Source: Metapseudomonas boanensis (lineage in GTDB: Bacteria; Pseudomonadota; Gammaproteobacteria; Pseudomonadales; Pseudomonadaceae). From it: a DNA stretch of 64,000 nucleotides. Both the position numbers and the translations under genes were made by a program. Of this stretch, positions 10,053 to 11,419 are shown in pieces. Location of the stretch: contig NZ_JAGTIS010000003.1 in assembly GCF_018704125.1 (NCBI RefSeq), positions 186,001 through 250,000 of the forward strand, given 5' to 3'. The notes under the pieces are model-generated. The model made no database searches and was not told where the DNA came from. It saw nothing but the letters and a program-made list of their open reading frames with translations. Position 1 is the stretch's first letter. Each line of letters opens with the position of its first letter.

Positions 10053-10076
10053 TATACAATTCAACATTCTTGTACA
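10053..10076 (+). promoter_or_regulatory. PplR/LitR-type direct-repeat operator before renalase
   Basis: TATACA (10053-10058), 12 bases, TGTACA (10071-10076). This matches exactly the T(G/A)TACA-N12-TGTA(C/T)A direct repeat reported for the light-response regulator PplR1 of P. putida (quoted from memory). It lies 48 bases before the renalase start. A candidate -10, TCTAAA, is at 10084-10089. Binding and light induction are inferred. Confidence 0.7.
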
Positions 10077-10123
10077 GGTATTGTCTAAAGCGTAGCCTGT
10101 AATCATAGGTAACGAGGTAGACC

Positions 10124-11107
10124 ATGAGTGCACCCATCGCCATCATCGGTACCGGTATTGCCGGACTCTCCGCCGCCCAGGCGCTCCACGCTGCCGGGCA
10201 GCATGTAGAACTCTTCGACAAGAGTCGAGGCAGCGGCGGTCGCATGTCCAGCAAGCGCAGCGACGCCGGCTCCCTGGATCTTGGCGCGCAATATTTCACG
10301 GCCCGCGACCGCCGCTTCGCCGAAATGGTCAAGCAGTGGCGGGATCGCGGCTGGGTCGCCGAATGGTCGCCCAGTCTCTACAACTTTGCCGCCGGCCAAC
10401 TGCTGCCCTCCCCTGACGAACAGATCCGCTGGGTCGGCTCGCCACGGATGAGTGCCATCACCCGAGCCATGCTCGGGGCGCTTCCGGTCAGCTTCGCCTG
10501 CCGCATCACCGAGGTCTTCCATGGCGAACGCCACTGGGGGCTGCAGGATGCGGAAGGCCTCAGCCATGGCCCCTTCAGCCATGTGATCGTCGCCACTCCG
10601 GCACCGCAGGCCACGGCATTGCTCGCTGCGGCACCCAAGCTTGCCGGTGCAGCTGCCAGCGTCGCCATGGAGCCGGTCTGGGCCGTCGCCCTGGGCTTCG
10701 ACACGCCGCTGGACACGCGCGTCGAGGGCTGCTTCGTGCAGGACAACCCGCTCGATTGGGTCGCACGCAACCGCTCCAAGCCCGGCCGCGAAGCGGGCCT
10801 CGACACCTGGGTCCTGCATGCAAGCAATGCCTGGAGCAAACAGCACCTGGACCTGCCGAAAGAAGTGGTCATCGAACACCTCCACGGCGCCTTCGCTGAA
10901 ATGATCGGCTGCGCCGTGCCCGCCCCCAGCTTCAGCCTGGCGCACCGATGGCTCTATGCGCGGCCAAGTCAGGCCCACCAATGGGGCGCGCTGGCCGATG
11001 CCGACCTCGGGCTCTACGCTTGTGGCGACTGGTGCCTGTCAGGCCGCGTGGAAGGTGCCTGGCTCAGCGGCCAGGAAGCAGCTCGCCGGCTGCTTGAACA
11101 CCTGTGA
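10124..11107 (+). CDS. bacterial renalase (dihydro-NAD(P) isomer oxidase)
   Basis: A 327-residue FAD flavoprotein. The Rossmann motif [15 protein letters not shown] is at residues 6-20, followed by [17 protein letters not shown], and the FAD-closing C-terminal motif [18 protein letters not shown] is near residues 300-317. The sequence closely follows the characterised P. phaseolicola renalase, which oxidises misreduced 2- and 6-dihydro-NAD(P) back to NAD(P) with H2O2 formation. No signal peptide is present, so it is cytoplasmic. RBS GAGG precedes ATG 10124. It starts a plus-strand run ending in photolyase, and its promoter carries an exact PplR-type box, so light control is likely. Its stop overlaps the GTG of the next, broken gene. 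Confidence 0.88.
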
Positions 11108-11309
11108 GCACGCTGCACATCAATCCCAACAAGCTTCTCCCCCCAAATGGACGGCCGTGAGGTCGTCCAACCGTGAAACACACTTTCTGGTCACTGAACT
11201 GGTCCGCGATGAGCTCGACAACGTGCTATTCGTGGAAATCGAAGCGGTGCTCACCAAGCGCGTCCAGCGCCTGGATTGGCATGACCTGAGCGACGCCGAA
11301 CGCTGGTAA
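11104..11309 (+). pseudogene. TIGR02450 family Trp-rich protein, broken
   Basis: The first frame from GTG 11104 (overlapping the renalase stop) encodes [13 protein letters not shown] and then runs into a stop at 11158-11160. In a second frame, from the six-C run at 11139-11144, the DNA encodes KWTAVRSSNRETHFLVTELV and onward to DLSDAERW. Joined by one added C, this gives the short Trp-rich TIGR02450 protein (NPxKLLxxKWTA...NRExHF). A second lesion appears at the end: after AERW comes TAA (11307-11309), yet the next codons still read PGWR then TGA, the family's usual tail. So a frameshift plus a late nonsense change are present. A homopolymer sequencing error could explain the first but not the second. 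Function of the family is unknown. Confidence 0.75.
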
Positions 11310-11347
11310 CCCGGCTGGCGCTGAACACCAAAAACCAATACAAAGCC

Positions 11348-11370
11348 TGTACAAAACTTTTATCTGTACA
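11348..11370 (+). promoter_or_regulatory. paired TGTACA boxes, distal
   Basis: TGTACA at 11348-11353 and 11365-11370 are separated by 11 bases, one short of the PplR1 consensus. The second copy lies within a perfect 12-bp palindrome ATCTGTACAGAT (11362-11373). A good -10 hexamer, TATGAT, follows at 11381-11386, so this pair may sit over the -35 region of the promoter for the DUF523 gene and downstream genes. Confidence 0.55.
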
Positions 11371-11395
11371 GATCACGACCTATGATTTAAAAATC

Positions 11396-11419
11396 TGTAC
11401 ATGAAATTAATTCTGTACA
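11396..11419 (+). promoter_or_regulatory. PplR/LitR-type direct-repeat operator, proximal
   Basis: TGTACA (11396-11401), 12 bases, TGTACA (11414-11419): an exact match to the PplR1 consensus direct repeat. It ends 22 bases before the ATG of the DUF523-DUF1722 gene. With the distal pair it gives four TGTACA hexamers in 72 bases of A/T-rich DNA, unlike the surrounding GC-rich sequence. Confidence 0.7.

Follow-up and report, generated by a model that had tools for sequence, protein, structure and literature searches.

Candidate LitR operators before the renalase and rudS genes of a photolyase block in Metapseudomonas boanensis

Results

The window, by which we mean the whole 64-kb stretch of M. 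boanensis DNA analysed here, contains a block in which a renalase gene, a degraded gene, rudS, litR1 and phr follow one another, with light-response boxes before renalase and before rudS (Table 1).

Table 1. Genes, boxes and putative promoter elements of the block, in window coordinates.
Feature	Position	Strand	Remarks
LitR/PplR-type box TATACA-N12-TGTACA before renalase	10053..10076	+	exact; 0 in 100 shuffles
TTGTAC, putative renalase -35	10070..10075	+	overlaps box half-site 2; TANNNT spacing; weak against sigma-70 consensus
TAGCCT, putative renalase -10	10093..10098	+	position conserved; TAGTCT, TAGCCT, TACGCT and similar in relatives
Renalase gene, 327 aa	10124..11107	+	PDB chain 4zcc 'Renalase', residues 1-327, E 1e-174; PF01593 and PF13450
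Degraded TIGR02450/DUF2389 (Trp-rich) gene	11111..11329, limits approximate	+	frame displaced, in-frame stop near end
Site 1, TGTACA-N11-TGTACA	11348..11370	+	N12 in most relatives; one of four exact N11 sites in the genome
TTTATC at the -35 place	11359..11364	+	by position relative to TATGAT
TATGAT, putative rudS -10	11381..11386	+	same hexamer as the P6650 -10 (PMC9758184)
Site 2, TGTACA-N12-TGTACA	11396..11419	+	exact; between putative transcription start and ATG, as in P6650
rudS, DUF523/TudS-DUF1722 fusion, 322 aa	11442..12410	+	PF04463 and PF08349
litR1, class II LitR of PplR1/PmlR1 type, 315 aa	12413..13360	+	MerR_1 and B12-binding_2
phr, deoxyribodipyrimidine photolyase, 474 aa	13371..14795	+	NF007955, 533 bits (cut-off 506)

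By its sequence, the renalase is a full-length homologue of the solved protein in PDB entries 4zcc, 4zcd and 5krq, which we take to be the renalase of Pseudomonas phaseolicola. The substrates that renalases oxidise are 1,2- and 1,6-NAD(P)H, both isomers being inhibitory to dehydrogenases (PMC7660482). The initial annotation placed the boxes correctly in two spacers, but the second of these is not empty. It holds the degraded TIGR02450/DUF2389 gene, recognised from PF09493 and TIGR02450 matches in the ORF 10956-11309 and from a three-frame translation. Between renalase and rudS, a stop-free TIGR02450 frame was recognised in four of 17 same-genus loci, two of the 17 being not judgeable.

The DUF523 protein, proposed initially as a member of the light regulon, is RudS. 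Its cysteines at 18, 50 and 115 are at the positions given for RudS_PP in Table 1 of PMC11417400. RudS, the name given to P. putida PP_0741, is a tRNA 4-thiouridine desulfidase, and PhrB, LitR and RudS form one LitR-controlled operon (PMC11417400). The proposed membership is probable but not new, having been published with that operon. The LitR-like regulator and photolyase noticed at the end of the block, litR1 and phr, do lie downstream of the rudS promoter. LitR1 matches PF13411, PF00376 and PF02607 (25.0 bits, cut-off 23.0). No B12-binding domain for adenosylcobalamin was found by domain search at E 0.001 in LitR1 or in a second LitR, LitR2. LitR1 thus has the MerR HTH and B12-binding_2 domains, with no B12-binding domain, that define class II LitRs; such a domain make-up has been described for these proteins, which function without B12 (PMC9758184). 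In another genome of the same genus (G013, locus L114), the boxes and rudS-phr are kept with no LitR1 match between them, and that genome retains only a weaker LitR match.

LitR2 is encoded on contig C3 and is 39% identical to LitR1 over residues 19-278. MerR models were matched, and PF02607 was not reported at E 0.001. Like pmlR2, the litR2 gene lies beside a LOV gene. The adjoining short LOV protein has 148 aa, a single PAS_9/LOV domain with no effector, and Cys53; its best PDB matches are 'sensory box' proteins, LOV structures among them. It occurs at 80-100% identity in 18 of 18 same-genus genomes, our own genome counted. The locus also holds an ABM-domain gene and folM- and folE-type genes. 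A gene near folE (L005, 6330-6827) matches the Pfam family HopJ, taken by its family name alone.

The boxes follow the consensus T(G/A)TACA-N12-TGTA(C/T)A of P. putida KT2440, as relayed by PMC9758184 and other citing papers. The two exact sites claimed initially, before renalase and before rudS, were found again when their positions were rechecked, as was the additional N11 pair. A chance or low-complexity origin has some grounds: TGTACA is self-complementary, other palindromic operators can contain it, and with up to two mismatches the consensus, at 178 matches in the assembly, is no commoner than a reversed control pattern (161). Because of these last counts, degenerate sites are indistinguishable from chance and we claim no weaker sites; the information is carried by exact or nearly exact sites only. 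The exact sites behave otherwise. The window has two, against none in 100 dinucleotide-preserving shuffles. The genome-wide search proposed as a check returned these two sites only in the whole assembly (5,710,896 bases or 5.71 Mb, 65 contigs), and the reversed control had no exact match there. We rejected chance on the shuffles, the whole-assembly counts and the recurrence of the box at the same place upstream of renalase across the family, and regard it as barely credible. All other copies of the hexamers in the window (TGTACA at 20755, 27051 and 34384; TATACA at 4131 and 5392) lie inside mechanically called ORFs of at least 150 aa, so the remark that intergenic copies are restricted to two spacers holds for the window. 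The observation itself is correct and belongs to a known system.

In the rudS promoter, Site 1, TATGAT and Site 2 follow one another as in P6650 of P. mendocina. P6650 has been mapped as TTGACT-N16-TATGAT; its transcript begins 48 nt ahead of the ATG, Site 1 overlies the -35, and Site 2 falls between this start and the ATG (PMC9758184). Forty-eight nucleotides before the rudS ATG is position 11394. We compared 79 rudS loci, namely the window and 78 of 80 named loci with a rudS match. The hexamer gaps are 12-26-12 in 44 of the 79 and arranged otherwise in 35, with 11-25-12 in the window only. At least 58 of the 79 have TTGACT as the -35, a lower bound because ten loci were read from TACAAT and six gave none. 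Since the window has TTTATC in place of TTGACT and a Site 1 spacer of 11, its rudS regulation may differ.

The exact pattern TRTACM-N11-TGTAYA occurs at four sites in the genome, with no match for the control. One is Site 1 of rudS. Another lies 190-212 nt upstream of folM, to which we would assign it, and the pair is also present in five of 17 same-genus relatives. A third is 20-42 nt upstream of the first gene in a row for SnoaL_2, SDR, FAD oxidoreductase, DUF1365 and UfaM-like proteins, and the fourth is 44-66 nt upstream of a row of Chalcone_3, DUF3833 and SDR genes that continues into a DPRP (cryB-type) photolyase gene. These ufaM-type and cryB-type rows stand together in the genome, away from the phr block. 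The exact TGTACA-N11-TGTACA sequences before them lie at 5819-5841 and 14473-14495 of L250 (G000:C34:268000-286000).

Exact TRTACM-N12 sites number three: the renalase box, Site 2 of rudS and the folM box, TGTACA-N12-GGTATA, 92 nt before the folM start. The seven exact sites (three N12 and four N11) are at five promoters, all by published regulon genes, their close orthologues or renalase, and neither pattern occurs anywhere else in the assembly. In the 18 same-genus genomes together, forward matches of the N11 pattern number 34, against three for the control, and are spread over 13 of the 18. Because all four exact N11 sites adjoin light-regulon genes (rudS, folM, the ufaM operon and the cryB operon), we read N11 as a genuine spacing class and not as noise. 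The TGTACA/GGTATA pair before folM has N12 in 11 of 17 same-genus relatives and N13 in four, and none was found in two. The same-genus TRTACM-N12 totals, 66 forward against eight for the reversed control, are inflated by a recurrent 24-mer (TATACCAAGGTAGACATCTGTATA and near copies) that matches the N12 pattern in 14 of the 17 other same-genus genomes and is absent from our own. At the single locus opened (L100, 1501-1524), a TetR-type gene (TetR_N, PF00440) begins 50 nt downstream of the 24-mer, which is therefore probably another operator.

For the renalase box we used 81 loci, the window and 80 named loci (the best 80 of 261 confirmed), which bear LitR1 by construction because LitR1 was the query. 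Within the renalase spacer, the best-matching box differs from the published consensus at no base in 10 of the 81 and at one base in 71, usually TATACC for TATACA, a variant also present at folM. An exact T(G/A)TAC(A/C)-N12-TGTA(C/T)A (TRTACM-N12-TGTAYA) stands 60-85 nt before the renalase ATG in 78 of the 81; two of the three exceptions have the box at 135 nt and one has TATACT. In all 78, TANNNT follows TTGTAY at exactly 17 nt and never at any of the other spacings between 13 and 21, the half-sites in such counts being conserved by construction, as exact boxes were preselected. The spacing of TANNNT from TTGTA(C/T) suggests that half-site 2 probably also serves as the -35 of a renalase-facing promoter. 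TTGTAC and TAGCCT match the sigma-70 consensus poorly, and a sigma-70 consensus scan of 9900-11460 found no promoter.

Across the family, 129 genomes had a renalase match. We scored 128, our own counted, leaving out G111, in which the match starts at base 5 of the contig. An exact box in the 60-85 nt range was found in 63 of the 128, in seven genera (by our genus labels, g1 18/18, g9 17/17, g14 14/18, g10 6/8, g5 6/16, g16 1/1 and g19 1/1), counts that overstate independence because many loci and genomes are closely related. TANNNT lies at 17 nt in 47 of the 63, at any other spacing from 13 to 21 in at most two, and on the opposite strand in one. The 16 genomes without TANNNT at 17 nt include all six from g5 and the single one from g19. 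In most exact-box genomes, then, the box seems to overlie the -35 of a renalase-facing promoter. The independent evidence is this spacing and a scan of up to 250 nt upstream on both strands, made with no preselection of exact boxes, in which a box with at most one mismatch was found in 73 of the 128 genomes against 13 of 3840 shuffles. Such a box was absent from g6 (13/13), g15 (17/17), g17 (4/4), g18 (7/7), g4 (2/2), g8 (1/1) and g13 (1/1). In g15, 14 of 17 genomes have LOV, and no rudS, LitR1 or phr match lies within the retrieved renalase stretch. The g6 genomes have the block in one piece but yielded no short LOV.

We also compared the renalase boxes (at most one mismatch) with the presence of the short LOV (cut-off E 1e-45) and of LitR, strong LitR1 being a best E below 1e-55. 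Among LOV-positive genomes, boxes occur in 54 of 71 with strong LitR1, seven of 17 with weak LitR only and none of three with no LitR. Among LOV-negative genomes, they occur in 11 of 32 with LitR1, ten of these 11 being in g9, and in one of five with no LitR. These class counts do not support a tight coupling of the renalase box to the short LOV as a general rule. Ten of the 17 g9 genomes (e.g. L163, L164 and L165) have no short LOV at this cut-off and keep exact renalase boxes, so the short LOV is not required for box conservation in g9, where light must enter by another route or the box must have a different role. LitR1 is present in L163, L164 and L165 alongside these boxes. The renalase box accompanies a RudS match in the same stretch in 65 of 90 genomes, and is found in eight of 38 with no such match; of the 30 unlinked genomes that have no renalase box, 24 belong to g15 or g18. 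Among RudS-linked genomes, it is present in 52 of 66 with a rudS box and 13 of 24 without, G014 and G016 being counted among the latter through a rudS start set inside the gene, though N12 sites precede it.

Discussion

Placing renalase and the DUF523 protein among the probable targets of the boxes, as the initial annotation did, is supported by the positions of the boxes. Renalase is the least documented part of the regulon, and other roles for its box have to be weighed. The spacer is shared with the divergent TIGR01777-hemH genes, and the box could serve these instead, as TIGR01777 starts only 97-127 nt to its left, depending on the start codon chosen, and in two g2 genomes the box is 213-220 nt from renalase. 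The spacing in the 81-locus set indicates the opposite: the box is anchored at 70-77 nt from renalase in 79 loci, in which the distance on the far side ranges from 87 to 208 nt. The TANNNT at 17 nt likewise faces renalase in 47 of the 63 exact-box genomes, the one TANNNT on the opposite strand being at 19 nt. In G047 (g16), the box is 74 nt from renalase, and hemH but no TIGR01777 match is present within 700 nt upstream. Anchoring and promoter direction thus both point to renalase, and we judge service to the divergent genes very unlikely.

Alternatively, the box could be an inherited relic or a site for some other regulator, with renalase outside light control. The seven genera that lack the box and the ten g9 genomes that keep it with no detectable short LOV would fit this view. 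The recurrence of the box far above the shuffles, which extends down to g5 renalases only 48-57% identical, does not, nor does its association with RudS, although the latter owes much to g15 and g18. In P. putida, PP_0738 to PP_0742 were up-regulated together in co-culture with a cyanobacterium (PMC11014904). This rise shows co-regulation at most, because illumination was the same in the control culture (PMC11014904). From the gene order, PP_0742 of KT2440 is probably renalase. On balance we consider a relic or a foreign operator improbable, if less so than service to the divergent genes.

We think it very probable that the boxes are operators of a class II LitR/short-LOV blue-light switch that controls rudS-litR1-phr, renalase, folM-folE and the ufaM and cryB operons. 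The sequence itself shows the boxes, where they lie and how far they are conserved, how the putative promoter elements are spaced, and that LitR1, LitR2 and the short LOV are present; binding at the renalase box, light induction of renalase and the functioning of the N11 sites are points that we infer. The mechanism follows published systems. PmlR2 binds paired TGTACA sites, represses, and is freed by illuminated LOV (PMC9758184). LitR binding, repression and anti-repression by LOV have been described for the orthologues, and phrB, pmlR1, ufaM, folM and folE are light-induced (PMC9758184). In the dark, LitR proteins on paired TGTACA half-sites would keep RNA polymerase off, covering the -35 region at the renalase box and at Site 1 of rudS and the early transcribed region at Site 2. 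In blue light, the short LOV would form a Cys53-flavin adduct and bind the LitR DNA-binding domain. Repression would then be lifted and the rudS-litR1-phr, renalase, folM-folE, ufaM and cryB transcripts made. As litR1 lies within a derepressed operon, it would be under the control of its own family.

The initial view of a self-controlled regulon captures the position of litR1 behind the rudS promoter. It is incomplete: LitR1 has no B12-binding domain, and the light input is most likely provided by the unlinked LitR2/short-LOV pair on contig C3. Nor is the regulon coextensive with the photolyase block, as boxes also stand at the ufaM and cryB operons and at folM-folE. ufaM and cryB are light-regulon members in P. 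mendocina and P. putida (PMC9758184).

What this study adds is renalase as a widely conserved, probable member whose -35 is apparently an operator half-site, together with the N11 class. The word 'renalase' is absent from the main text of PMC9758184. Our literature search, covering sources other than the P. putida study's own list of light-inducible genes and supplementary tables, found no tie between renalase and light. For P. putida KT2440, phrB and pplR1 are among the genes relayed as light-inducible, 19 in all, by PMC9758184 and other citing papers, and a light-inducible phr is mentioned for P. cichorii (PMC13274461).

The set has a likely common function, in which the photolyase repairs light damage to DNA, RudS removes photoreactive s4U and renalase returns mis-reduced NAD(P)H isomers to the pool. 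A bolder and more doubtful idea, which we put forward tentatively, is that renalase belongs to a light-damage repair kit of the Pseudomonadaceae: the LOV-LitR switch would induce renalase with DNA photolyase and RudS, so that cofactor, DNA and tRNA are repaired in parallel, and it would act through two functional operator spacings, N12 and N11. In this scheme, blue light or near-UV, acting via flavins and other photosensitisers, would give rise to mis-reduced NAD(P)H isomers that inhibit dehydrogenases; such a photochemical origin of the isomers is hypothetical. Renalase is a cofactor-repair enzyme, and the box before its gene is conserved in many but not all related genera, whole genera lacking it. 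Light control of renalase, if it holds for many Pseudomonas species, would open the bacterial enzyme's role to experiment in a common laboratory strain. The definition of the LitR operator would also widen, with A or C as the last base of the first half-site and a spacer of 11 or 12, and searches for the regulon in other genomes would therefore change.

The system can be compared with several known ones. CarH and the class I LitRs are AdoB12 photoreceptors. They act as repressors in the dark (PMC9758184). LitR1 has the MerR-type DNA-binding domain in common with them; it differs in having no B12-binding domain, and light sensing would reside in a separate LOV protein. With the published RudS system (PMC11417400), the window appears to share the TudS(DUF523)-DUF1722 fusion, the three cysteines and a light operon with PhrB and LitR, and we noted no difference from what is described there. 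With the PplR1-3/PpSB-LOV system of P. putida KT2440, the window boxes have the operator consensus in common. The PmlR1/PmlR2-PmSB-LOV system of P. mendocina (PMC9758184) likewise has a pmlR1 and phrB block, the P6650 layout, a separate pmlR2-LOV-folM/folE locus and a folM box, the same TGTACA-N12-GGTATA motif lying 95 nt before folM. M. boanensis differs from it in the N11 spacer of Site 1, in the TTTATC at the -35 place and in carrying ufaM and its partners in a separate cluster with cryB.
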